A stretch of DNA of 64,000 nucleotides from Bryobacterales bacterium. Lineage in GTDB: Bacteria > Acidobacteriota > Terriglobia > Bryobacterales > Bryobacteraceae. Shown here piece by piece: positions 47,522 to 64,000 of this stretch (positions are counted from its first letter, which is position 1; each line of letters starts with the position of its first letter). Below the pieces are notes generated by a model. It was given only the letters and a program-made list of their open reading frames with translations. It made no database searches and was not told the origin of the DNA. The position numbers and the translations under genes were made by a program. Where the stretch lies: positions 62,001 through 126,000 of the forward strand of contig JADZCM010000041.1 in the NCBI GenBank assembly GCA_020851555.1. Reading direction: 5' to 3'.

Positions 47522-47605
<84 letters not shown>

Positions 47606-47847: not shown

Positions 47848-48624
47848 TTATGCACGGATTGAGGGTGCTTTGCCGGTGTGACCCGCCTGTTTGACCCTGT
47901 GTCTCCGTGCCTGCCGCCCGCCTCGATCCGCCCGAATCACCTCTCGCTTCGTAACTCGTTGTTCAGGCTGGGTCGCCCGTGCATAGGATCTTATGCACGC
48001 GCTTGGTCTGCACCGCAGCGCGGCCGCCACCACGGGCACGAAGCCGTGGGCGCCTTGCGCAACCGCTCGCAGCCGGTCCATCAAACGCTGGAAGATGCCT
48101 TTCTCCTGGTAGTGATCGCTATAGCTGACCCCCACGCGCCCGGCATGCCGCCAGATCTTGGCCGCCACGAACAGGAACCGTAAGCTCGCCGTGGCCAGGG
48201 TGATGTGGCGGAGCGTCTCCGGACTTTCGTGTTCCTCGCGGTTGAACAGCAGCAGCCAGCAGTTCAGGTTGTAAGCTAGCATCACAACTTGAAACCAGAT
48301 GGCGTTCATCATCCAGCGGTTGGAGGGATGCGCCGCCAGACCGGCGTCGTTATTGGCTTCCTTGATCAGGTTCTCGGCGCCGGCCCGCCGGTTGTAGAAC
48401 CACACCAGCGCATCCAGCGGGCCGTCCATGTCGGTCACGAAGACCCGGTAGGTGTACTCCGGCGTGTCGAACAACTGATACTGCTCGGGGGCGTCCGCTT
48501 CTCGGGCCTCGGGCTTCTTCTGGTACCGCAGGGCCAGGAAACGGTACGCTCGGTCCCATCCTTCGGGCTGGTAGCGAAACTCGCACTGCCCGTCGGCGTC
48601 GGTGCGAGGCGAGGCTTTCCAATC
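47848..48624 (-). pseudogene. IS1380-family transposase, C-terminal half
   Basis: Minus-strand frame with RVFVTDMDGPLDALVWFYNR and AENLIKEANNDAGLAAHPSN, the catalytic C-terminal region of IS1380 transposases, and WLLLFNREEHESPETLR. The N-terminal half is gone: the frame is cut at 48624/48625, exactly where the IS66 left end begins. The last 60 or so residues of the frame look non-native. Inactive. Confidence 0.8.
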
Positions 48625-48681
48625 GTAAGCGTCAGAGCATCCCATTTGTTCGCGCGGCGAGGTGGGTGGTGAACTGAGAGG

Positions 48682-49020
48682 GTGAGCGAAGAACAGGTGG
48701 GGAGTCCGCGACGGCACCGCAGCCGGGCGGAGGTCGAACAGTTGCTCGTCGAATTCGAAGCCGGCGGGATGAGCCGGGTCGAGCTCTGCCAGAAGCATGG
48801 GTTGGCGCTCTCGACGCTGGCACGGTACCAGAAACGGCGACGGCAGGCGGAGGGGCAAAATACCGCCGCCGGCCGGTGGGTGGCTGTGAAAATATCCACG
48901 CCGCAGCCAGCGCACAGCGGGCTGACGCTGGCGCTAGCGGGTGGACGGCGGATCGAAGTCGGCCGTGGATTTGATCCCCCCACGCTGGCGTGATTGCTAA
49001 CTCTGCTGGAGCCGGCCTAA
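48682..49020 (+). pseudogene. IS66 TnpA accessory protein, nonsense codon near the 3' end
   Basis: A helix-turn-helix protein of IS66: EEQVGSPRRHRSRAEVEQLL, MSRVELCQKHGLALSTLARY, and RRIEVGRGFDPPTLA. A TGA at 48991-48993 interrupts the frame, which otherwise continues LLTLLEPA to a TAA at 49018-49020, so the last residues are lost by a point mutation (probably CGA to TGA). Confidence 0.75.
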
Positions 49021-49023: not shown

Positions 49024-50476
49024 CAATACTGTTCACTTAACAATCTTAATCCTCCGTGAGGCATCCATGCGCCGGGTCCGTTGCCGCTTCCGTGGCCGCA
49101 GATTGTAGTTGCTCATCTTCCTCTTCACGCCTCGGAAGTTGATTCGATTCCGGCTGGAGACGACGCGCTCCTCCAGAATCTCGTCGAGGATGGCTTCATG
49201 CAGGATTTTTCTCTGCCGAGGGGGGAATGGCTGCGTAGCGGGCCAATCGCCGCTGGACAACTCTGACCGCGTGCAGAAAGGAGAGTCGGTCGGGATCTTC
49301 ATCCGCCTTCAGCGCCGCTTCGTGCATCAGTCCGCGGATGGCGAAGTGAGCCAACAACAATCCCCAGAATTCCTGCTCCACCAGTTCCGGCGTTTTGCTT
49401 CGCAGTACGATCTGCGCGCCGCGCAAGTGCGTTTTCAACTCGTCCAGCGAGGTCTCTATCTCCCAACGCTCATGATAGAGCGCGGCCAACTCTTTGGCCG
49501 GAGCCTGCTTGGGATCCAGGATCGTCGTGATCAATCGGTACAGCGCATCCGAGCCCGGCACGTTGTGCAACCGGTAATCGACCACCCGCACCACAATGCC
49601 CTTGCGTTGGTTGCGGCGGTCGGAAGTCGAGGCGTAGATCCGGCTGAGGTATGCGCCATCGGGCAGCCGCCGGTCGACATCCAGGCGCGCATTCTGCCGG
49701 GCTCGCCACAGCAAGTCCGCCCCCGTCCTGGCCGCTCTTTGCCAGAGATCGTAGCCGGGAAAGAAGCGGTCAGCCAGACAGAGCATTCCTGTGCCGAGAG
49801 ACTGCACCACGTCGCGGGCCAAAGTGAGTTCGTCCGTGGCGTATGGTCCCATCCGCGCCGCCCACAGCACATGGGTTCCATTCTCCAGTAGCGTCACGAA
49901 GCGAAGTTTCGGGAAGGCGCTCTCCCCCCGACTGGCCCCCGGCCTGCCGAAGGTCTTTTCGTTCTCCTCGGTGTCGGCCACGTCCAGCGAACTGCCATCC
50001 AGGCTCACCAGCCGCCAATCCCGATACCAGGCGCCTTTGGTGCGCTTCTCGGCAATGGGGACAACCAGACTGCCGTAAAGCCGGCGCATCGGCTCGGGGC
50101 CCAGACGGCCGCGAGCCTGCGAGATGCCCGACTTGCCGGCCACCTTGATGCCAACCGACGGGTCCAACAACCATTGCACACCCTCCAGCAGGCAGCGCAG
50201 GACCTCGCGCGTGGACGATCGCATGTACAAGGCCAGAGCAATCACGTAGTAGACGACGACGTGGGCGGGCAGATCTCGCTCACGGACACTGGCGCGTTTG
50301 GTTTCGACAAGCACCTCGCGCACTTTCTCCAGCGGGAAATACTTCGCGATCACGCCAAGGCTGATGTAATCGGTGATACGACTGCCGGCAGGCAGGGACG
50401 CAACAGTTCGGGCCATTCTGGGGGCCTCCCGCCCCAAACAGAATAGCACGGAAATGTTGTTAAGTGAACAGTATTG
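49024..50476 (-). mobile_element. IS4-family insertion sequence
   Basis: A 1453-bp element with perfect 20-bp terminal inverted repeats (caatactgttcacttaacaa) and a 10-bp target duplication, both typical of IS4. It encodes one transposase on the minus strand. Intact ends indicate a recent insertion into IS66. Confidence 0.92.
49033..50416 (-). pseudogene. IS4-family transposase with C-terminal frameshift
   Basis: The frame from 50416 (GGAGG upstream) gives the N-terminal helical domain (GSRITDYISLGVIAKYFPLE), the first Asp region VSLDGSSLDVADTEEN, the second LCLADRFFPGYDLW and the Glu region YHERWEIETSLDELKTHLRG, so the DDE core is present. At a run of six C (minus strand, about 49216-49221) the frame ends 15 codons later at 49196, while the normal C-terminus (KILHEAILDEILEERVVSS, KRKMSNYNLRPRKR) continues in another frame to 49033. 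A one-base length change in the C-run is the likely cause. Loss of the basic tail may or may not abolish activity. Confidence 0.8.
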
Positions 50477-51302: not shown

Positions 51303-51611
51303 GTGAGACAGCAACGGAAGCACCACACCGCAGAAGAGAAGGTCGCCATCCTGAGGCGGCATTTCCTGGAGAAAGTTCCGATCTCGGACCTGTGCGAACA
51401 GACCGGCATCCACCCCACCGTCTTCTACCGCTGGCAGAAGGAGTTCTTTGAGAACGGGGCGGCGGCCTTCCAGCGGAAGGGCCGCTCCAACCACCCGGCC
51501 GAGCAGGAACGCATCGAGTACTTGGAGAAGAAGATCCAGACCAAGGACGAGGTTCTGGCCGAGCTGATGGCGGAGCACGTGGCGCTAAAAAAAGTCTTGG
51601 GGAACTCTGAG
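51303..51611 (+). CDS. IS3-family OrfA (helix-turn-helix protein)
   Basis: About 100 residues from a GTG: KHHTAEEKVAILRRHFLEK, LCEQTGIHPTVFYRWQKEFF and a leucine-zipper end (IEYLEKKIQTKDEVLAELM), the standard OrfA plan for binding the element ends. The frame stays open past the domain to 52850, without a stop at the usual place. An A7 run (51587-51593) lies at the end, as at IS3 frameshift sites, but the relation to orfB is +1 (or -2), not the canonical -1. Confidence 0.8.
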
Positions 51612-51621
51612 CGGCGTATGG

Positions 51622-52566
51622 GTGGCTCACGACACACGGGACCAGATCGTGGATTTCGTCCGGCGCTGGTCGGAAAAGACCGGGATCGGCGCCGGGCGGT
51701 TCATCCAATGGCTTGCCGTGAGGGCCAGCAAGTTCTACTCCTGGCGCCAGCGCTACGGCCGTGTGAACGAGCACAACGGTTGGATTCCCCGCGACTTCTG
51801 GTTGGAGCAGTGGGAGAAGCAGGCCATCGTCAACTTCCACCTGAAGAATCCCTTGGAGGGCTACCGGCGGCTGACGTTCATGATGCTGGATGGCGGCATC
51901 GTGGCGGTGAGTCCGGCCAGCGTGTGGCGGGTGCTGAGCCTGGCGGGGCTGCTCCAGAGATGGAACGGGAAGCCCTCGCGCAAGGGCACGGGCTTCGAGC
52001 CGCCGCCCGGCCCGCACCAGCACTGGCACATCGATGTTTCCTACATCAACATTGGTGGGACGTTCTACTACCTGTGCAGCGTGCTGGACGGCTACAGCCG
52101 GTTCATCGTGCACTGGGAGTTGCGGGAGTCGATGCGCGAAGCCGACGTGGAGATCATCTTGCAACGAGCCAAGGAGGAGTATCCCGAGACCCGGCCGAGG
52201 GTCATTTCCGACAACGGCCCGCAGTTCATCGCCCGCGACTTCAAGGAGTTCATCCGGATCTCGGGCATGACCCATGTGCGAACCTCCCCGTCCTATCCCC
52301 AATCGAACGGAAAGATCGAGCGCTGGCACAAATCGCTGAAGGGAGAATGCATCCGGCCGGGCACGCCGCTGTCGCCCGAGGACGCGCGGCGTTTGATCGG
52401 GCAGTACGTGGACCACTACAACACCGTGCGGCTGCACAGCGCCATCGGGTACGTAACGCCCGCGGACATGCTGGCGGGCCGGCAGGCCGAGATCCACACC
52501 GCCCGGGACCGCAAGTTGGAGGAGGCTCGCCGCGAGCGGCAACTGCGCCGTCAGCAGGCGGCCTGA
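51622..52566 (+). CDS. IS3-family transposase OrfB (rve integrase core)
   Basis: A 314-residue DDE transposase. The catalytic acids are in WHIDVSYINIGG (Asp), VISDNGPQFIARD (Asp) and YPQSNGKIERWHKSLK (Glu). NPLEGYRRLTFMML is the HTH-like region and HYNTVRLHSAIGY the C-terminal signature. The start is a GTG, so it may be translated on its own or through frameshifting from orfA. It appears intact. Confidence 0.9.
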   Translation: MAHDTRDQIVDFVRRWSEKTGIGAGRFIQWLAVRASKFYSWRQRYGRVNEHNGWIPRDFWLEQWEKQAIVNFHLKNPLEGYRRLTFMMLDGGIVAVSPASVWRVLSLAGLLQRWNGKPSRKGTGFEPPPGPHQHWHIDVSYINIGGTFYYLCSVLDGYSRFIVHWELRESMREADVEIILQRAKEEYPETRPRVISDNGPQFIARDFKEFIRISGMTHVRTSPSYPQSNGKIERWHKSLKGECIRPGTPLSPEDARRLIGQYVDHYNTVRLHSAIGYVTPADMLAGRQAEIHTARDRKLEEARRERQLRRQQAA

Positions 52567-52904
52567 GAAATGGAGTTAGAATGACTGTGCCAGGCGAAAC
52601 GGAAGCGGGCTCTGCTGGGAAGCAACCCTGCCGAGGGATAGCCCGGTGGACTCATCGAGACGATGAGGCTGGGGCGCGCGGGTACGGCCCTGCGCCCCTT
52701 CCAAACTTCATCGGATCGGTAGATCCTCATGCCTTGAAAATCCCCGCCCGAAGGGCGGAATATTCGCTTACGGAGAGCGCCAACTCTCCATTTCCGGCTG
52801 AGCCAGCACAAGTGAGGGAGGCGACCCCTGCTGTCGGCCCGGTGAAGTAGGAACGGAACGGCTCAGTGCCCGACGGAACCGAAGTGAACGGTGAGGCCAC
52901 ACAC
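52567..52904. other. Non-coding tail of IS3 and leader of the defence operon
   Basis: From the orfB stop to the IS3 right end (about 245 bp) no gene is visible; the stretch has GC-rich self-complementary parts (for example CCCGCCCGAAGGGCGG near 52744) and may form a structured RNA. From 52812 to 52904 lies the leader of the helicase gene, with GAGG at 52893-52896 as ribosome binding site. No clear promoter boxes. Confidence 0.4.
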
Positions 52905-55900
52905 ATGAACGTATTCGAGCTTCGCGAGCGCTTGATTGATGACTACTCCTCGTACATACGGAGCTTCATACGGATACGAGACGAACGGATCGATCGACTC
53001 GTATCTTCGTACCTCGATCAAGGGCTCCTCTGGCCGGATCCGCTTATCCAACTGAACCCATCGTTCCAGTACGCCGGGAGCATCGATGATTTGGTTGCTG
53101 AAGGACTCCTTCATGCTGAGTGTTCAAGAGTCTTTCGTGTTGGCAAAGAGAACGGCGACGGCAGGCCGCTGCGGTTGTACCAGCACCAAGCTGACGCCAT
53201 TCGTCGGGCGCGCGCCGGCCGTAATTACGTCCTGACGACCGGCACCGGATCGGGCAAGAGCCTCGCCTACCTCATCCCGATCGTTGATCACGTGCTGCGA
53301 AATGGCACAGGGCGCGGGATTCAGGCCATCGTCGTCTATCCGATGAACGCGCTGGCTAACAGCCAATTCGGCGAACTCGGGAAATTCTTGAAGCTTGGTT
53401 ATCCAGATGGTAAAGGCCCGGCCACCTTCGCCCGGTACACAGGACAAGAGGGCGATGAAGAACGGAATGCGATTGTTGCACAGCCGCCGGATATCCTGCT
53501 CACGAACTACGTGATGCTGGAGTTGATCCTGACGAGAGTCTACGAGAAACAGCTCGTCAAGGCAGCACAGGGTCTTCGCTTTCTTGTTCTCGATGAGCTT
53601 CATACCTACCGAGGGCGTCAGGGTGCCGATGTGGCCCTGCTGGTCCGGCGCGCACGAGAGTTCTTCGGCGCGACCAGGCTTCAGGTCGTCGGGACCTCAG
53701 CAACGCTGGCCGGCCCAGGGACGTACGATCAGCAGCAGGGGGAGGTGGCTGCCGTTGCCACCGTTCTGTTTGGCGCCGAGGTGGCTCCGTCCGACGTTGT
53801 CGGTGAGACGCTGCAACGAGCTACACCCGAAGAGGCCATTGAAGACCCTGCATATCTCACTTCACTCCGGAGGCGCGTTGAGGATGACGGGGCTAAGTCG
53901 CCATTGACTTACCAAGCCTTGACGGCAGACCCACTTTCTTCCTGGATCGAAGGCACATTCGGGATTTACCGTGACAACGCTTCGGGCCGACTGCGGCGCC
54001 GGCGTCCCAGAACCATTACTGGTCAGAACAGCGCCGCGGGCGAACTGAGCCGGGTTACAGGTGTTGATGAAGCGAAAGCGAAAGCGGTGATCCAGGAAGC
54101 GCTACTTGCTGGCTATCAGTGCGAGCGGAATCCCGAAACCGGCTTTCCGGCGTTCGCGTTTCGACTGCACCAATTCATCAGCCGTGGCGATACTGTCTAC
54201 GCATCTCTCGAAACCGAAAACGATCGCCACCTGACGTTCAACCGCCAGCAGTTCGTGCCAGGTGATAGACGCAAGATCCTGCTGCCGATGGTGTTCTGCC
54301 GCGAGTGCGGGCAGGAGTACTACTGCGTACGCCGGCTAGAGGATTCAGATTCCGGAGCCGTCACATACGTTCCGCGGGAACTCTCTGATCGTAGCGGCGG
54401 GGATGGCTCGAAACCCGGCTTTTTGCACTTCAGCGCGGAAAGGCCATGGCCTTCGGGTACTGAAGAGGAGCTTACAAAATTGCCGGAGGACTGGATCGAA
54501 GACACGAACCAAGGTCCGCGTGTGAAGGCTGCTCGCAAGAAGAACCTGCCGCGGCCCGTCACAGTCTCCTCTGATGGGACGGAGATAGCCGACGGCATCA
54601 GTTGCCATTTTGTCGAAAGCCCTTTCCGGTTCTGCTTGCACTGCCGCGTTTCTTATGACTTCCGCACGACCTCGGATTTCGGGAAGCTGACATCACTCGG
54701 TACGGAAGGCCGAAGCACTGCGACGACAATCCTCAGCCTGGCCACAATTCGACACCTCCGGAAAGAGGGATCCCTGGCTCCTCGCGCGCAAAAATTACTG
54801 AGCTTCACCGACAACCGCCAGGACGCCTCCTTACAAGCAGGGCACTTCAATGACTTCGTTGAGATCGGCCTGTTGCGATCGGCTCTGCTGAAGGCCTGCT
54901 GCGTGGCGAAACCTGGCGGCCTCACCCACGAGGTCTTTACACAGCGAGTTTTCGATGCATTAGGCCTTCCGTTCGCCAGCTACTCCAAAGACCCTGATCT
55001 CAAGTTCCAGGCCAGGCTTCAGACCGAGCGGGCGTTCCGCGATGTGATTGGGTACCGCCTGTATCATGATCTGCGCCGCGGGTGGCGAGTGACGTCACCG
55101 AATTTGGAACAATGCGGGCTGCTGGAGATCAACTACCTGTCTTTGGAAGACCTTTCGAACGACACCGCATCCTGGCAGAATCTACATCCTGCTTTGGCGG
55201 GCGCTGCTCCAGTGTCGCGTTGCCGAATCGCCAAGACGCTACTCGATTTCATGCGGAGGGAATTGGCCGTTCAGGTGGACTACCTCGACGCGACCAAACA
55301 GGAAACCATTCAACAGCAGAGCAGCCAGCGTCTGATCGCCCCATGGGCACTTGATGAAAATGAAATCCTGGAACACGCCGCAACGCTCTATCCGCGCTCC
55401 GTACGTCAAGGCGATTCGGGCGGCGACGTGTTCGTCACAGCTCGAAGTGGCTTTGGGCTTTACCTCCGGCGGACGGGAACGTTCCCCGACTATCACGACC
55501 GGATCTCGACGGCAGAGGCCACCGAGATCATCCGGCAACTGCTCGGCACGCTCCGGCTGGCCGGTTTGGTAGAGGTGGTCGATGAGCCCCAAACCGCGGA
55601 TGATGTCCCCGGCTACAGGTTGCCGGCGTCGGCCATACTATGGCGCGAGGGTGACGGTGCCAAACCGTTTCGCGATCCCATACGGGTACCCGGCGAGTCC
55701 GAGGCGGAAGGACGCACAAATCCGTTCTTCGTTGACTTTTACAGGTCCATGGCGTTCGAACTCGCCGGTTTCGAGGCTCGCGAACACACCGCGCAGGTCC
55801 CATACGAGGACCGGCTGATTCGGGAAGACAGGTTTCGCAAGGGCGAACTGCCGATCCTCTATTGCTCTCCGACTATGGAACTCGGCGTCGACATTGCCGA

Positions 55901-58076
55901 GTTGAACGTGGTCAACATGCGCAATATCCCACCGACTCCAGCGAACTATGCACAGCGCAGTGGGCGCGCCGGGCGGAGTGGACAACCGGCGTTGGTGTTC
56001 TCCTATTGCACGACGGGGAGTCCGCATGATCAGTATTTCTTCAAACGGTCGGGGCGAATGGTGTCGGGTGAAGTAACGCCCCCACGTTTGGAACTCGCGA
56101 ACGAGGATCTCGTTCGCGCTCATCTTCACGCGATCTGGCTTGCGGAAGCCGGCCTTAGCCTCGGCACTTCCTTACGGGATCTTCTGGACGTCGCCGGCAA
56201 CGACCCAACCCTGGCAACCCGCGATACCGTTCTCGATACAATTCGCCGGAGTCAACCCCGGCTTGCCGCTCAGGTGCGGGCGCAGCGAATCCTGGCGACA
56301 TTTGCTGACGACCTCAAGGATGCGGACTGGTTTACCCCGCAATGGACCGAGGAGGTCTTCAAACAGATTGAGTTGAATTTTGAAGCGGCTTGCGAACGAT
56401 GGCGGAACCTCTGTAAGGCTGCGCTCGCTCAACAGAAAACTCAGAACGCAATCATCATGGATATGGCACGGTCGCCCGAAGAGCGCCGCCAAGCCGAGCG
56501 CCTCCGGCGTGAAGCGGAATCGCAGTACAAACTGCTGACCGAGACTCAGAACGTCCTTCAATCTGATTTCTACAGCTACCGCTATTTTGCCAGTGAGGGC
56601 TTCCTGCCTGGGTACAACTTTCCCCGCTTGCCGCTGTCCGCTTACATACCCGGCCGGCGCACGCAGCAGCGGGACGAATTTCTCTCGCGACCCCGCTTTC
56701 TCGCCATCACGGAGTTCGGCCCGCGAGCCGTCATTTATCACGAGGGCTCACGCTACCTCATTAATAAGGCAATCTTGCCCCTTGGACAAGACGGTCCCGT
56801 CTTCGGTCAATTGAAGCGGTGCACGGCTTGTGGATACCTGCACCCCGTCGACAACCCGCCAGGTCCGGACCTCTGCGAGAATTGCGGCGCTGGCCTCGAT
56901 TTCGTACTGAATCCGATGTTGCGGCTGCAGAACGTCTCCACTCGCCGCAAGGATAAGATCAACTCGGACGAAGAAGAGCGATTGCGGCTTGGTTACGAAA
57001 CCCAGAGCGGCTATCGCTATGCGGTGTACCGCGGCGTGAAGTCGCATCAGACAGCTCTGATCCGGAGTGGCTCGAACGCCATTGGTCAGCTCAACTACGG
57101 CCACGCTGCGACGCTCTGGCGAATCAACCTCGGTTGGACCCGGCGCGCCATTAGAGACCAGTACGGCTTTGTGCTCGACATCGAACGCGGCTACTGGCAG
57201 CGAAACGATCTGATGCCAGAAGACGACGACGTTGACCAATTGACTCACCGGCTGGAACGCGTCATCCCTTATGTCGAGGACCGCCGGAACAGCCTCGTGT
57301 TCGAGCCAAAGACAGCACAGTCAGTTGAAGTGATTACCTCGTTGGCATACGCCCTGAAGAACGCCATTCAAGTCATCTATCAGCTCGAAGACGACGAACT
57401 CGCCTGCGAACTTTTGCCCAATGGCAATCAGCCGCGCTACATTCTGCTTTATGAGGCCGCGGAAGGCGGAGCCGGTGTTCTGCGCCGCTTGCTAAAAGAT
57501 CCTCAGGCGTTCCCAAACGTCGCACGGGAGGCCCTTCGCATCTGTCATTTCAACCCCGGCACAGGAGAGGATGAGGGCCACGCGCCGGGCGCAACGGAAA
57601 CGTGCGAGGCGGCTTGTTACGATTGCCTGCTGAGCTACTCCAACCAACTCGTTCACCGGCTGCTCGACCGGAAGGCCATCCGCGACGTCCTTTTGGACTT
57701 CGAGCGTTCTGCCGTCTCAATAGCTCCGGCCGCCACTCCTCGGTCTGAGCACTTGGCGCAACTGACGCGCCTCTGCGGCTCGAAGCTCGAAGAATGCTGG
57801 CTGAAGTTCCTTGAGGACAATGATCATCACCTGCCTACGAGCGCGCAGGTGTTCATCGACTCCTGCAAAACACGGCCTGATTTTTTTTACGAAGACCATA
57901 ACACCGCGATTTACATCGATGGCCCGCCACATCAGTACCCCGACCGCAAGCAACGGGATCAAGCGCAGACTGAAGCAATGGAAGATCGAGGTTACACGGT
58001 CATCCGGTTTGGTGCTGAAGACGACTGGGCGGCAATCGTCAAGAAGTACCCGAGCGTGTTTGGAGGTGGGAAATGA
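52905..58076 (+). CDS. Large DEAD/DEAH-type helicase with zinc-binding/DUF1998 region and C-terminal Vsr-like nuclease domain
   Basis: A 1723-residue protein. The helicase has Walker A TGTGSGKS (residues 112-119), box II LDELH (229-233), GTSATLAG, and a C-terminal helicase lobe with YCSPTMELGVDIAELNVVN and NYAQRSGRAGRSGQ. Zinc-type Cys clusters are CRECGQEYYC and CTACGYLHPVDNPPGPDLC. The MZB/DUF1998 part has LLYEAAEGGAGVL and CEAACYDCLLSY. Residues 1655-1715 (RPDFFYEDHNTAIYIDG, RDQAQTEAMEDRGYTVIRFG) resemble Vsr/DUF559-type PD-(D/E)xK nucleases. The start at 52905 has GAGG eight bases upstream. GC content is lower than in the core genes. It overlaps the SNF2 gene (ATGA). A fused DrmA/DrmB-like or DruE-like defence protein is most likely. 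Confidence 0.82.
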   Translation: MNVFELRERLIDDYSSYIRSFIRIRDERIDRLVSSYLDQGLLWPDPLIQLNPSFQYAGSIDDLVAEGLLHAECSRVFRVGKENGDGRPLRLYQHQADAIRRARAGRNYVLTTGTGSGKSLAYLIPIVDHVLRNGTGRGIQAIVVYPMNALANSQFGELGKFLKLGYPDGKGPATFARYTGQEGDEERNAIVAQPPDILLTNYVMLELILTRVYEKQLVKAAQGLRFLVLDELHTYRGRQGADVALLVRRAREFFGATRLQVVGTSATLAGPGTYDQQQGEVAAVATVLFGAEVAPSDVVGETLQRATPEEAIEDPAYLTSLRRRVEDDGAKSPLTYQALTADPLSSWIEGTFGIYRDNASGRLRRRRPRTITGQNSAAGELSRVTGVDEAKAKAVIQEALLAGYQCERNPETGFPAFAFRLHQFISRGDTVYASLETENDRHLTFNRQQFVPGDRRKILLPMVFCRECGQEYYCVRRLEDSDSGAVTYVPRELSDRSGGDGSKPGFLHFSAERPWPSGTEEELTKLPEDWIEDTNQGPRVKAARKKNLPRPVTVSSDGTEIADGISCHFVESPFRFCLHCRVSYDFRTTSDFGKLTSLGTEGRSTATTILSLATIRHLRKEGSLAPRAQKLLSFTDNRQDASLQAGHFNDFVEIGLLRSALLKACCVAKPGGLTHEVFTQRVFDALGLPFASYSKDPDLKFQARLQTERAFRDVIGYRLYHDLRRGWRVTSPNLEQCGLLEINYLSLEDLSNDTASWQNLHPALAGAAPVSRCRIAKTLLDFMRRELAVQVDYLDATKQETIQQQSSQRLIAPWALDENEILEHAATLYPRSVRQGDSGGDVFVTARSGFGLYLRRTGTFPDYHDRISTAEATEIIRQLLGTLRLAGLVEVVDEPQTADDVPGYRLPASAILWREGDGAKPFRDPIRVPGESEAEGRTNPFFVDFYRSMAFELAGFEAREHTAQVPYEDRLIREDRFRKGELPILYCSPTMELGVDIAELNVVNMRNIPPTPANYAQRSGRAGRSGQPALVFSYCTTGSPHDQYFFKRSGRMVSGEVTPPRLELANEDLVRAHLHAIWLAEAGLSLGTSLRDLLDVAGNDPTLATRDTVLDTIRRSQPRLAAQVRAQRILATFADDLKDADWFTPQWTEEVFKQIELNFEAACERWRNLCKAALAQQKTQNAIIMDMARSPEERRQAERLRREAESQYKLLTETQNVLQSDFYSYRYFASEGFLPGYNFPRLPLSAYIPGRRTQQRDEFLSRPRFLAITEFGPRAVIYHEGSRYLINKAILPLGQDGPVFGQLKRCTACGYLHPVDNPPGPDLCENCGAGLDFVLNPMLRLQNVSTRRKDKINSDEEERLRLGYETQSGYRYAVYRGVKSHQTALIRSGSNAIGQLNYGHAATLWRINLGWTRRAIRDQYGFVLDIERGYWQRNDLMPEDDDVDQLTHRLERVIPYVEDRRNSLVFEPKTAQSVEVITSLAYALKNAIQVIYQLEDDELACELLPNGNQPRYILLYEAAEGGAGVLRRLLKDPQAFPNVAREALRICHFNPGTGEDEGHAPGATETCEAACYDCLLSYSNQLVHRLLDRKAIRDVLLDFERSAVSIAPAATPRSEHLAQLTRLCGSKLEECWLKFLEDNDHHLPTSAQVFIDSCKTRPDFFYEDHNTAIYIDGPPHQYPDRKQRDQAQTEAMEDRGYTVIRFGAEDDWAAIVKKYPSVFGGGK

Positions 58077-60967
58077 GCTTCGCTGTCGGATCTCTGGTCA
58101 CGGCACGAGGACGGGAATGGGTAGTGCTGCCCGAATCTGATCCTGACTTGCTGCTGCTCCGGCCGCTTGGCGGGAGCGAAGAGGAAGTGACGGGTATCTA
58201 CATGCCGCTCGAGGTGGTGAAACCTGCCACGTTTGACCTTCCCAATCCAGATCGCCTCGGCGATTTCCGGTCCTCCCGGCTGCTTCGTGACGCATTGCGC
58301 CTCGGATTTCGATCGAGCGCCGGCCCATTCCGGTCGTTTGCTCGAATCGCAATCGAGCCGCGGCCGTACCAGTTGGTGCCGCTTCTCATGGCTCTCCGGT
58401 TGGACCCAGTGCGGTTGCTGATTGCTGATGACGTGGGCATCGGTAAGACCGTCGAAGCCGCCTTGATTGCGCGTGAGTTGCTGGACCGCGGTGAGGTAAA
58501 GCGGCTTGCCGTTCTCTGTCCTCCCCAACTCGCCGAGCAATGGCAACGGGAACTCCGCGGCAAGTTCAACATCGGCGCGGAACTGGTGCTCCCCGGCACG
58601 GCTACGAAACTGGAGCGTGGCTTGGCGCTCGGGCAATCGCTCTTCGAGCAGTATCCGCACGTCATCGTCTCGCTTGATTTCATCAAATCCGACCGCCGGC
58701 GGGATGAATTCCTGCGTACGTGTCCGGAACTCGTGATCGTGGACGAGGCGCATACATGCGTGCAGCAATCAGGCAACCAAGCCGGCCGCTCCGCCCGCCA
58801 CCAACGTCACCAGCTTGTTTCCGGCCTGGCATCCGACCCGGATCGGCACCTGATCCTCGTCACAGCCACGCCGCACAGCGGCAACGAGGACGCATTTCAC
58901 TCCCTGCTGCGGCTGCTCAACCCCGATTTCGACACGCTCCCGTCCGATCTCACGGGAGCCGCGAACGAGGCACATCGGCGGCGCTTGGCGGCGCATTTCG
59001 TGCAGCGGCGGCGTGCCGACATTCGCCACTTCCTGAAGTCCGAGACGCCATTCCCGGAACGTGAAGAGAAGGACGAGACTTACCAGTTGACGGCCAAATA
59101 TCGCCAACTTCTCGACCGTGTCCTGGAGTATGCCCGCGAAGTCGTCTCCGAAGCGGATGGGAGCCACCACCAGAGAGTCCAATGGTGGTCCGTATTGGCG
59201 CTGCTGCGAGCGTTGGCCTCAAGCCCGGCAGCCGCCGCCGCAACGCTGCGGACCCGCGCCGTCACGCTAGACACCGAAACCAATGAAGAGGCAGATGCAA
59301 TCGGGCGGCGCACCGTTTTTGATTTGACGGACGATGAATCTTCCGAGGCGATCGATCTCCCGGCGGGAAGCGATGCGGAAAGTGAGGAAGATGATCGCGC
59401 CCGCCACCGCCGCCGGCTTCGCGAAATGGCCCGGCTGGCCGAGGCACTCGAAGGCCACGAGGATGCCAAGCTTGCGGGTGTCACGAAGCTGGCTTCGTCC
59501 TTACTCAACGATGGCTACCAACCGATTATTTTTTGCCGCTTTGTCCACACCGCGGAGTATGTGGCAAAGGCGCTCCGCGAAAGCCGCGCCATACCCAAAG
59601 GAACCGAGATCGTTGCTGTGACCGGCCAACTCGCGCCCGCTGAACGAGAAGAGCGCGTAGGCCGGATGGCGGATTTCCCTCGCCGGGTGCTGGTTGCGAC
59701 GGACTGCTTAAGCGAAGGAATCAACCTGCAGCGTGATTTCAATGCGGTCATTCACTATGACCTCTCCTGGAACCCGACCCGTCACGAACAGCGCGAGGGT
59801 CGTGTGGACCGCTTCGGACAGCCGAGCCCAAAAGTGCGGGTCGTGACCTACTACGGCGAGGATAACGGAGTCGACCGTATCATCCTTCGCGTGTTGCTGA
59901 AAAAGCATAAAGCGATCCGGGCGGCCACCGGCGTTTCCGTTCCGGTGCCGGCCCGTGCGGAGGAGTTGGTCGAGGCGATTTTTGAAGACGTCCTGATGCG
60001 GCGCCGCCCCAAAGATAACCGCCAAATGCTTCTCGATTTCGGCGGCGCGGAGGAACCCGAGGGCAGCCCGGCGCGTGCAGTTCACGACGAGTGGGAGCGC
60101 GCCGCCGAACGCGAAAAGAGATCCTACCGCGAGCAGCGGATGTTCGCCCAGGAGACGTTCAAGTTCGCGGATGTCGCGCAGGAGATCGAAGCTGTCCGGT
60201 CGGCAATTGGTTCCGGCGTGGACGTGGCGGAGTTCGTGCATGCTGCTCTGCGGCACTGGAAGGCTTCGCTGTCCGAGGTTGGCGCCGGGAGCCGCGCGCG
60301 ATTGCAGGTGAACCTCGGGGACGTGTCGCGTACGATTCGAGACGCCCTTCCGGTCAACGGAGCTGAATTCACTGCCCGGTTCGATCTGCCCGTTCAGCCC
60401 GGGGAACTCTACCTTCATCGAACCCACCCGCTGGTGGAAGCGTTAGCTACGGGGATTCTCGACGCGTCGCTCGACGCAAAGAGCGGAGACGGAGCCGCAC
60501 GTTGCGGAGTAACGCGTACTCGGTCCGTCGAGCGAAGAACAACATTGCTCCTGTTGCGATTCCGCTATCACATCGAAACCCAAACCCGAACCAGGGAGGG
60601 CACGCAATCCCGGCAACTGCTCGCCGAGGATTGCCAGGTGCTGGCGTTCGCGGGGTCGCCGCAGAATCCACAATGGCTCTCCCAGGAGCGGGCCGAGGCC
60701 CTGTTCGACGCCGTGCCGGACGCGAACTTCGCGCCCGAGCTCCAACGAGACGCTCTCGAACGCGTGCTGCAAGGCATACCCGAAATCTCACCACATCTGG
60801 AGCGGGCCGCTCGTGACCGTGCGAAAGAACTTCTTGCGGCGCATGCGCGGGTGCGGTCGGCAACGCGCCTCCGTGGCGTATCCCAGAAAGTTGAGCCGCA
60901 GTTGCCGCCTGACGTTCTCGGTGTTTACGTTTTTCTGCCGGTTCCGGCTGGAGGGCCCGCCGCATGA
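58073..60967 (+). CDS. drmD: DrmD-like SNF2-family helicase
   Basis: A 964-residue SF2 ATPase. Motifs: Q-like RPYQLVPLLMAL (97-108), Walker A ADDVGIGKT (118-126), VIVDEAHTC, LVTATPHSGN, and in lobe 2 VLVATDCLSEGINLQ and EQREGRVDRFGQ. The N-terminal GSLVTARGREWVVLPES and the arrangement match the DISARM SNF2-like helicase DrmD as I know it. It is coupled to the genes on both sides by ATGA overlaps. The family is implicated in phage-DNA recognition or translocation. The C-terminal 300 residues have no recognised domain. Confidence 0.75.
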   Translation: MSFAVGSLVTARGREWVVLPESDPDLLLLRPLGGSEEEVTGIYMPLEVVKPATFDLPNPDRLGDFRSSRLLRDALRLGFRSSAGPFRSFARIAIEPRPYQLVPLLMALRLDPVRLLIADDVGIGKTVEAALIARELLDRGEVKRLAVLCPPQLAEQWQRELRGKFNIGAELVLPGTATKLERGLALGQSLFEQYPHVIVSLDFIKSDRRRDEFLRTCPELVIVDEAHTCVQQSGNQAGRSARHQRHQLVSGLASDPDRHLILVTATPHSGNEDAFHSLLRLLNPDFDTLPSDLTGAANEAHRRRLAAHFVQRRRADIRHFLKSETPFPEREEKDETYQLTAKYRQLLDRVLEYAREVVSEADGSHHQRVQWWSVLALLRALASSPAAAAATLRTRAVTLDTETNEEADAIGRRTVFDLTDDESSEAIDLPAGSDAESEEDDRARHRRRLREMARLAEALEGHEDAKLAGVTKLASSLLNDGYQPIIFCRFVHTAEYVAKALRESRAIPKGTEIVAVTGQLAPAEREERVGRMADFPRRVLVATDCLSEGINLQRDFNAVIHYDLSWNPTRHEQREGRVDRFGQPSPKVRVVTYYGEDNGVDRIILRVLLKKHKAIRAATGVSVPVPARAEELVEAIFEDVLMRRRPKDNRQMLLDFGGAEEPEGSPARAVHDEWERAAEREKRSYREQRMFAQETFKFADVAQEIEAVRSAIGSGVDVAEFVHAALRHWKASLSEVGAGSRARLQVNLGDVSRTIRDALPVNGAEFTARFDLPVQPGELYLHRTHPLVEALATGILDASLDAKSGDGAARCGVTRTRSVERRTTLLLLRFRYHIETQTRTREGTQSRQLLAEDCQVLAFAGSPQNPQWLSQERAEALFDAVPDANFAPELQRDALERVLQGIPEISPHLERAARDRAKELLAAHARVRSATRLRGVSQKVEPQLPPDVLGVYVFLPVPAGGPAA

Positions 60968-63900
60968 GCGCCAGTCCGCTATCCGCGTACACGACCATCC
61001 GGACGGAGGGCGCGTTGCTGCCCGCCGATATTCTCGCTCGCATCGCATCCGGCGACACGGCGCTCGGAGGGTTGGATCCGGCATCTTACCATCTCGATCC
61101 CACGGAAAAGCTCGGCGAGGCCACAAATCGCGCCTGGAACCGGCTGCAGGCGCGCTGGGCTACGTTCCAATCGGAGCGCGCCAGGCTGGCTCCAACGGAT
61201 ACGGGGACCAGCATCACCCGGGAACGTTGGTTGCTGCCGCTGTTTGAGGAGTTGAAATTCGGCCGGCTCCAACTTGCGGCCAAGATTGAGATCGATGGCA
61301 AATCGTACGCCGTAAGTCACTCCTGGCAGCATGTGCCCTTCCACCTGGTGGGCTGCCAGGTGGACCTCGACCGGCGCGTGGGCGTGGCGGGCGCGCAACG
61401 ATCCAGCCCTCATAGTCTGTTGCAGGAGCTGCTGAACCGGAGTTCCGATCGCCTGTGGGGGATCGTTTCCAACGGCCTGCGCCTGCGGCTGTTGCGCGAC
61501 AACATCAGCCTGACCCGCCAGGCCTACGTTGAGTTCGACCTCGAAGCGATGATGGCGGGCGAGGCCTATCCGGATTTCGTCCTGCTCTGGCTCTTGCTGC
61601 ACCAGTCCCGATTTGAGGCCGAGCGCCCGGAGCAGTGCCAGCTAGAGAAGTGGTCGCAAGCGGCCCGCACCGAGGGCGTCCGTGTGCTCGACGGCCTTCG
61701 AGATGGAGTCCAGCGGGCCATCGAACACCTGGGCCAGGGCTTCCTCGCGCACCCGGCCAACGTGTCCTTGAGGGAGAGCCTGCGCTCGGGTGCGCTGGAC
61801 AAACAGGACTACTACCGCCAGATCCTGCGCCTGGTCTACCGGCTGCTCTTCCTGTTTGTGGCCGACGACCGCGATCTCTTGTTGGTTCCCACCGCCGATC
61901 CGGCCGCGCAGAAGCGATACCGCGATTTCTACGCTACGACGCGTTTGCGCCGGCTGGCGACCACTCGTGCCGGTTCCAGGCACCACGACCTCTATTCCGG
62001 GCTGAAGCTCGTGATGGATAAACTCTGCGGCGATGGTTGCCCCGAACTCGCGCTTCCCGCTCTCGGCAGCTTTTTGTTCTCACCGCGGGCGCTGCCGGAC
62101 CTGAATGGTTGCGATCTTTCCAATCTGCATCTTTTGGAAACCATCCGGTCACTGGCGGTCACCCAAACCGGCCAAAGCCGGCGCGTGGTGGATTACAAGA
62201 ACCTGGGCGCGGAGGAACTCGGCAGCGTCTACGAATCGCTGCTGGAACTGCATCCGGACCTGGATGCCGAGGCCGCTACATTTGAACTGAAGATCGCCGC
62301 CGGCAGTGAGCGCAAAAAAACCGGCAGCTATTACACGCCCACCAGCCTGATCTCCTGCCTGCTCGATTCCACGCTTGACCCGGTGCTCGACGAGGCTGCA
62401 AAACAGGCGGAGCCGGAGACCGCGATCCTCAAACTGAAGGTGGTCGACCCGGCCTGCGGCAGCGGGCATTTTCTGATCGCCGCCGCACACCGCATCGCCA
62501 AACGGCTGGCCGGCGTTCGGACGGGTGAGGAGGAACCGCCGCCGGAGGCGCAACGCAAGGCGCTCCGCGATGTGATCGGGCATTGCATATACGGCGTCGA
62601 TCTCAACCCGATGGCCGTCGAACTGTGCAAGGTGTCCCTCTGGATGGAGGCGCTCGATCCCGGAAAGCCGCTTTCGTTCCTGGAACATCGCATCCAGTGC
62701 GGCAACAGTCTGCTGGGCGCGACGCCCGCGCTCCTCGCGCGAGGCATTCCCGACGAGGCGTTCACGCCAATCGAGGGGGATGACAAGGAGATCTGCAAAG
62801 CTTTCAAGCGGATTAATAAAGACGAGCGCAACAAGCAGATGCGCCTCTTCGCCGCTACGACGGAGCCTTGGCAGCAACTCGGCAATTTCGCCGCCAGCCT
62901 GATGAATCTGGACACCGTCGGCGACGACTCCATCGAGGCTATCCGCGAGAAGGAGCGGATGTACGAGGAGGCTATCCGTTCAGGCGGCTACCTTGATGGC
63001 TGCTTCTGGGCCGACACCTGGTGCGCGGCGTTCGTGTGGAAGAAGACGCGCGAATTTGGCTATCCCATAACGGAAGAGGTATTCCGCCGCATCGAAAAGA
63101 ACCCGCATGCGTGCGAGCCGTGGATGCGGCACGAAATTCAACGTCTAGCTAAGGAGTATCGGTTCTTCCACTGGCACCTGGCTTTCCCCGATGTGTTCAA
63201 AGTAGCTCTCACCGGAGAGCGGGCGGAGAACCCGCAGACAGGCTGGAATGCGGGATTCGATGTGGTACTCGGCAACCCGCCCTGGGACACCTTGAGCCCA
63301 GATGCTAAGGAGTTTTTCTCCAACCTCGATCCACAAGTCCGTTTTCTGGCGCCCGCAGAACAGGAAGCCAGAATCGGGGAGTTGCTTCAGAGCCCCTCAG
63401 TGTCAGCCGAATGGAACACATGGTGCCGGTATCTATACGCAGTCGTTCTGTTTATCAAGCAGAGCGGCCGCTACACCCTCTTCGCCCCTGGAAACCTCGG
63501 CAAGGGCGATTTCAATGTCTATCGGATGTTCGTGGAGGCGGCTCTGCGAGTGGCTTCCAGGAACGGGCGAGTTGGGCAAGTGGTGCCTGAAGGCTTCTAC
63601 AACGGTGCGAACTGCATGGCCATACGCAAGTGGATCTTCGAGCGTTGCTCACTGTCGAAGCTCGTGGCCTTTGAGAACGCAAAGGAGGTCTGGTTCGATG
63701 GCATAGACAGCAGAACAAAATTCGTAGTTTACGCGCTCTGGAATCAGGGTTCGACCCATGAGTTTCCTGCAGCATTCAACGTTCGCACGCCAGCGCGCCT
63801 CGCGGCGGTCAATGCAGGTAGCACACTATCTCTTCCTGTTTCGCTTGTTGCCGAGTTCTCTCCGGATGCATTGGCCATCATGGAGTTCGACAGTCAGTTT

Positions 63901-64000
63901 GAGATAGACGTCGCGCGAAAAATGTATTCGCGACACCCGAAATTCGGTGATGACACGGCCGGCCCTCCGACTCGGACCTACATGCGCGAAATCGATATGG
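60964..64000 (+). CDS. Eco57I/PglX-type adenine-specific DNA methyltransferase, 3' end beyond the window
   Basis: The first 1012 codons of an N6-adenine methyltransferase. The SAM motif VVDPACGSGHFL begins at residue 493 and the catalytic NPPWD at 771-775. YYTPTSLISCLLD precedes the catalytic core as in PglX, DrmMI and Eco57I-type enzymes, and the N-terminal 450 residues form a helical domain typical of them. Its ATG overlaps the SNF2 stop. It would mark host DNA in a DISARM-like system. It runs off the right edge, so the target-recognition domain and any nuclease fusion are not seen. Confidence 0.85.
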   Translation, partial: MSASPLSAYTTIRTEGALLPADILARIASGDTALGGLDPASYHLDPTEKLGEATNRAWNRLQARWATFQSERARLAPTDTGTSITRERWLLPLFEELKFGRLQLAAKIEIDGKSYAVSHSWQHVPFHLVGCQVDLDRRVGVAGAQRSSPHSLLQELLNRSSDRLWGIVSNGLRLRLLRDNISLTRQAYVEFDLEAMMAGEAYPDFVLLWLLLHQSRFEAERPEQCQLEKWSQAARTEGVRVLDGLRDGVQRAIEHLGQGFLAHPANVSLRESLRSGALDKQDYYRQILRLVYRLLFLFVADDRDLLLVPTADPAAQKRYRDFYATTRLRRLATTRAGSRHHDLYSGLKLVMDKLCGDGCPELALPALGSFLFSPRALPDLNGCDLSNLHLLETIRSLAVTQTGQSRRVVDYKNLGAEELGSVYESLLELHPDLDAEAATFELKIAAGSERKKTGSYYTPTSLISCLLDSTLDPVLDEAAKQAEPETAILKLKVVDPACGSGHFLIAAAHRIAKRLAGVRTGEEEPPPEAQRKALRDVIGHCIYGVDLNPMAVELCKVSLWMEALDPGKPLSFLEHRIQCGNSLLGATPALLARGIPDEAFTPIEGDDKEICKAFKRINKDERNKQMRLFAATTEPWQQLGNFAASLMNLDTVGDDSIEAIREKERMYEEAIRSGGYLDGCFWADTWCAAFVWKKTREFGYPITEEVFRRIEKNPHACEPWMRHEIQRLAKEYRFFHWHLAFPDVFKVALTGERAENPQTGWNAGFDVVLGNPPWDTLSPDAKEFFSNLDPQVRFLAPAEQEARIGELLQSPSVSAEWNTWCRYLYAVVLFIKQSGRYTLFAPGNLGKGDFNVYRMFVEAALRVASRNGRVGQVVPEGFYNGANCMAIRKWIFERCSLSKLVAFENAKEVWFDGIDSRTKFVVYALWNQGSTHEFPAAFNVRTPARLAAVNAGSTLSLPVSLVAEFSPDALAIMEFDSQFEIDVARKMYSRHPKFGDDTAGPPTRTYMREIDM

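Follow-up and report, generated by a model that had tools for sequence, protein, structure and literature searches.

ARMADA is a class of anti-phage defence system described in 2025 (Bell et al. 2025, PMC12458937). In ARMADA Type I, the first gene encodes a YprA-like helicase with a fused DUF1998 domain and a C-terminal Vsr-type nuclease, and the next two, in this order, a BrxHII-like helicase and a PglX-like methylase. Fusion of helicase and DUF1998 is the usual state in the YprA family, DISARM representing the branch in which the two are split, and the helicases of ARMADA and Druantia are of shared ancestry (PMC12458937). In ARMADA Type II, defence depends on every gene as well as on the ATPase and NPPW motifs, and does not proceed by abortive death. 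Anti-phage activity has been published for Type II only, with none reported for Type I in any paper found.

The window considered here is a stretch of 64,000 nucleotides from a Bryobacterales bacterium, located on a 150-kb contig in a 3.7-Mb genome. The operon at its right end is very probably an anti-phage operon of ARMADA Type I that forms part of the cargo of a tRNA-integrated mobile element (Table 1). The original prediction had read it as a three-gene defence operon related to DISARM class 1, possibly an undescribed hybrid or a DISARM subtype with fused DrmA and DrmB, and had called for profile searches, a co-occurrence survey and a reading past the right edge of the window. Its gene-level claims are borne out: the ORF coordinates and the junction sequences, AAATGAGC for genes 1/2 and GCATGAGC for genes 2/3, confirm three genes joined head to tail by two ATGA overlaps, with a 1723-aa helicase-DUF1998 protein (DEAD, Helicase_C and MZB by Pfam) in first and an Eco57I-type methyltransferase in third position. 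Three genes in this order thus stand, but the methylase is not the last gene, since a fourth one overlaps its stop codon. The methylase frame, open at the window edge, closes at L002:5929. All three reading frames are intact and have kept their catalytic motifs. An in-frame GTG lies upstream of the gene 1 ATG, at 52866, and no sigma-70-like promoter was seen ahead of the operon.

Table 1. Features of the operon, the island and related loci. L002 denotes the DNA running beyond the right window edge; L002:5929 is equivalent to window position 64929. Other L numbers are surveyed loci.
Feature	Position	Strand	Remarks
Left attachment-site copy, 63-bp direct repeat of tRNA-Ser(GCT) 3' part	47522..47584	-	exact match
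DDE transposase fragment (DDE_Tnp_1_4 type), island left end	47848..48915	-	
IS4-family transposase	49196..50449	-	
IS3-like transposase pair	51303..52566	+	HTH_Tnp_1 and rve
Gene 1, YprA-family SF2 helicase-nuclease (ARMADA ArmC homologue)	52905..58076	+	ATG start, 1723 aa
Gene 1 RecA1/DEAD domain	53181..53711	+	GTGSGKS at residue 113, DELH at 230
Gene 1 RecA2/Helicase_C domain	55755..55982	+	QRSGRAGR motif
Gene 1 MZB/DUF1998 zinc-binding domain	57342..57629	+	Pfam; fused here, separate gene in DISARM
Gene 1 C-terminal Vsr/DUF559-like PD-(D/E)xK nuclease domain, predicted	57657..58073	+	E1629, D1659, D1672, H1676
Gene 2, BrxHII/RapA-like SNF2 helicase (ARMADA ArmA homologue)	58073..60967	+	964 aa
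Gene 3, PglX-like N6-adenine methylase (ARMADA ArmB homologue)	60964..64000, on to 64929 (L002:1964-5929)	+	1321 aa complete
Gene 3 target-recognition half, apparently exchangeable	63271..64000, continuing past edge	+	residues ~770-1260
Gene 4, uncharacterised	L002:5926-6807 (window-equivalent 64926-65807)		293 aa; GTGA overlap with methylase stop
darT-like gene and IS66, after gene 4	L002:6815-9606		darT cut after ~132 codons
IS66 element	L002:7212-9606		ends GTAAGCG...
Right copy of 63-bp repeat, within intact tRNA	L002:15549-15611		exact match
Intact tRNA-Ser(GCT)	L002:15549-15642 (window-equivalent 74549-74642)		
ArmD-like protein in other loci	L053:6928-8973, L063:7613-9694, L094:15538-17595, L098:15520-17598		~685 aa, between YprA and BrxHII genes

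The order YprA, BrxHII-like, PglX-like is the published Type I order, so that the idea of an undescribed hybrid does not hold: the arrangement is already catalogued (PMC12458937), and the locus is a further member of a system described in 2025. The kind of system was foreseen correctly, its novelty was not. Likeness to the described Type I extends to gene content, the fused OB-CON-DUF1998 helicase, the Vsr-like C-terminal nuclease, the partners and phylogeny; the differences are a fourth gene, coupled to the third, and a darT that is no longer intact. The main text of PMC12458937 makes no mention of Acidobacteriota. ARMADA Type II (E. coli NCTC 12900; Klebsiella pLH94, our L032) has three homologous core proteins, but its order is BrxHII, PglX, YprA, ArmD, its helicase is longer than gene 1 (2113 aa in the Klebsiella system), and ArmD is absent here. 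We ran the co-occurrence survey on 80 independently fetched loci, located on genome contigs from a wide range of phyla. Gene 2 followed gene 1 in 63 of the 66 loci where this could be tested, and gene 3 was present, in conserved order, in 53 of 56. As the gene set recurs in the same order across most of the 80 loci, the three-gene arrangement is not due to chance. ARMADA I occurs on plasmids as well, namely D. radiodurans MP1 and Nocardioides pNOCA01, both with McrB nearby, in agreement with the authors' report (PMC12458937); McrB was found in eight of the surveyed loci.

In gene 1, the residues of Walker A, DE.H, TSAT and motif VI are nearly all invariant among 36 homologues, and the four candidate catalytic residues of the C-terminal domain are mostly conserved. 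When the latter domain is isolated, its DUF559 match exceeds the cut-off in 28 of 31 homologues. A phmmer search of this domain alone against the PDB gave chance matches only, so that the comparison had to be based on a profile and on a structure model: in the profile search the best PDB matches were Vsr/DUF559 chains, though weak, and the model (pLDDT 85) showed a weak fold match to the Vsr-like homing endonuclease domain 3r3p (prob 0.93), with further weak matches to other PD-(D/E)xK nucleases, none at E < 0.001. The nuclease is presumed to be active. The BrxA-like helical insert described for the lineage after RecA1 (Bell et al. 2025, PMC12458937) was not recovered here by fold search: the model examined for it (pLDDT 88.8) had no significant PDB match.

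As predicted, a DruE-like DUF1998 helicase leads the operon: DruE profiles are the best PADLOC matches of gene 1 (310 bits). Together with the common ancestry of ARMADA and Druantia helicases (PMC12458937), this might suggest a Druantia variant in which DruE has acquired new partner proteins. We regard this as very improbable, since no DruH/STY4851 or DruABCD partner adjoins the gene, gene 1 is not part of the DruE III branch, and nearly all relatives have a BrxHII-like helicase together with a PglX-like methylase for partners. A Pfam scan of the neighbouring ORFs, some of which were also searched with PADLOC, revealed no DruH, DruABCD or DruMFG partner, and membership in Druantia was rejected for want of these partners. 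Druantia III (DruH-DruE) shares a homologous large DUF1998 helicase-nuclease with the locus, but there is no DruH here, and DruE III has PLD-type nuclease domains in place of the Vsr-like one (PMC12458937). In a tree of 33 helicases, gene 1 belongs to a 22-member clade (SH-aLRT 100) made up of helicases from the same operon type and a Haloquadratum homologue of reversed gene order. Outside this clade are two DruE III proteins located beside DruH-type genes, the Klebsiella ARMADA II helicase, DrmA and MrfA-like proteins. Several of the outgroup branches are long, for which reason the branching order among the outgroups is not trusted.

Gene 2 combines SNF2-related and Helicase_C domains (Pfam) with intact GIGKT and DEAH motifs. 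It was predicted to be a DrmD-like SNF2 helicase; the SNF2 assignment and the likeness to DrmD stand, but it is not DrmD proper, as it reaches 320 bits against the curated NCBIfam DrmD model (NF038317), whose cut-off is 610 bits. The BrxHI/BrxHII models gave 218 bits and RapA 116 bits. In PADLOC, the highest score came from model PDLC02853, labelled DpdE (878 bits over the full length), with DrmD at 279 bits. No 7-deazaguanine biosynthesis cluster (Dpd / BRIGADE) is present among the annotated neighbouring ORFs, and PDLC02853 may call BrxHII-like ARMADA helicases Dpd in error. The annotation libraries used still spread the proteins of ARMADA, a class described in 2025, over DruE, DpdE, DrmD and DrmMI labels.

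These profile results also bear on a variant DISARM class 1 with fused DrmA/DrmB. The predicted relation to this class is confirmed in that gene 2 resembles DrmD (NF038317) and gene 3 DrmMI (PADLOC, ~241-242 bits), a related SNF2 helicase and adenine methylase being common to both systems. Yet gene 2 is far under the DrmD cut-off, gene 1 scores 310 bits with DruE but 56 bits with DrmA, and a wide distance separates DrmA from gene 1 in the tree. In addition, DISARM has DrmA and DrmB split and the PLD protein DrmC, and neither feature is seen here. The PLD gene, rightly noted as missing up to the window edge, is absent from the DNA beyond it and from the whole assembly (92.7% complete; no PLDc_2 match). 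No separate full-length drmA and drmB genes, which would have pointed back to DISARM, turned up past the edge; apart from gene 1, the genome encodes a single MZB protein, an MrfA-like helicase of 801 aa located on a different contig. DISARM membership was rejected for lack of a separate DrmB and of DrmC, and a DISARM variant is highly unlikely. The supposed fusion is the usual YprA-family state, DISARM being the split branch, and the notion of a DISARM/Druantia hybrid is corrected to ARMADA.

The ARMADA Type I methylase encoded by gene 3 has Eco57I and N6_Mtase domains (Pfam), with DPACGSG at residue 495 and NPPW at 771. The nearest relative is found in Candidatus Solibacter (L044). Identity to this relative amounts to 85-86% for genes 1 and 2 and to 89% for the N-terminal 720 residues of gene 3, but drops to 17-33% across residues ~780-1260 (22-24% for the target-recognition half), before rising again to 67% in the last ~60 residues. 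The best matches of this half come from other lineages, a locus of the Myxococcota (L062, 49%) and a Roseomonas plasmid (51%). A similar drop, to differing degrees, is seen in other close pairs. Judged from these alignments, the target-recognition half of gene 3 appears to have been exchanged, and the identity pattern is that expected for a sequence-specific marking enzyme with a swap of its target-recognition domain. The exchanged half provides comparative evidence that ARMADA I discriminates self from non-self through sequence-specific methylation.

We propose that the gene 3 product acts as a site-specific N6-adenine methylase marking host DNA, with methylation presumably serving as the self-mark, and that restriction falls to genes 2 and 1. 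Of these, gene 2 would act as a RapA-like double-strand translocase and gene 1 as a YprA-family 3'-5' helicase whose DUF1998 canopy would grip single-stranded DNA, the Vsr-like nuclease at its C-terminus cutting DNA in which the mark is missing. DruE III, to which gene 1 is related, is reported to load on 3'-tailed DNA and to have nuclease activity (PMC13192584). By analogy, Type I would work as Type II does, and protection would be direct rather than suicidal.

Reading past the right edge, where no drmC was found, led to gene 4, a truncated darT and an IS66 element. In gene 4, a conserved domain spans the N-terminal residues 1-175, and the tail is rich in Cys. The gene gave no useful match against viral contigs, phrogs, Pfam or PADLOC, failed to turn up in 72,556 plasmids, and, besides the gene adjoining the window itself, had two weak partial matches in samples of 396 and 121 Acidobacteriota genomes. 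Its N-terminal domain does occur downstream of ARMADA I in two other loci, L059 (64%) and L073 (44%). This distribution, together with the start codon of gene 4 within the methylase stop, would fit an effective operon of four or five genes, in which gene 4 (and darT) belongs with ARMADA I and gene 4 is a sensor or regulator. We consider this rather unlikely: gene 4 is absent from most ARMADA I loci, darT is truncated, and, of the three clear members, two came to light within ARMADA loci themselves, which introduces an ascertainment bias. For the latter reason the association of gene 4 with ARMADA I is no more than suggestive. It is equally doubtful that gene 4 represents a rare family so far seen only beside ARMADA Type I, providing a new sensor or regulator in a cassette with a DarT-type ADP-ribosyltransferase. 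No macro-domain (DarG) gene is located nearby, the only one in the genome being on another contig. A target-site duplication of the IS66 copy was not found; its flanks, ...GAAGACC versus ACTCCAGT..., differ, so that a rearrangement is likely.

The ARMADA I operon resides on an island of about 27.0-27.1 kb (window 47522 to L002:15611) bounded by the exact 63-bp repeat. Its G+C content is 61.9%, compared with 66.0% and 65.2% in the flanks. Apart from the transposases, the operon, gene 4, the truncated darT and IS66, the island carries genes of replication type, for example those for a primase-like zinc-ribbon protein and for an AAA_25 ATPase that weakly resembles phage primase/helicase families, as well as genes for an excisionase-like HTH protein and, adjoining the tRNA, a tyrosine integrase. 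Defence islands with ARMADA on tRNA-integrated elements have been reported, and for ARMADA II such carriers were satellite-like (Bell et al., PMC12458937). Insertion sequences flank the operon on both sides and IS66 interrupts darT, as one might expect if the defence locus had decayed and were carried along passively by a mobile island. Three intact frames with conserved catalytic motifs make this improbable, as does the fact that genes 1 and 2 are still 85-86% identical to their Solibacter relatives. With its matching ends, the intact island provides an example of an ARMADA I element occurring naturally in Acidobacteriota.

Some of the surveyed loci deviate from the Type I scheme. In four Type I-like loci the ArmD-like proteins listed in Table 1 have a RelE-like start (by eye) and a UvrD helicase domain (Pfam), and the one in L094 shares, along its length, 35% identity with Klebsiella ArmD. 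As the main text of PMC12458937 ties ArmD to Type II, and to another position, these loci blur the Type I/II line as drawn there. An SMC-like ATPase gene directly follows the methylase gene in L030 (at 21862), L046, L059, L063, L067, L077 and L094, which belong to several phyla; it is possibly a recurrent extra component of ARMADA I. Finally, the methylase precedes the YprA helicase in L034 and in L025 (11299-17169), the latter an Acidobacteriota relative; such a reversed order has been reported for archaea and cyanobacteria (PMC12458937).
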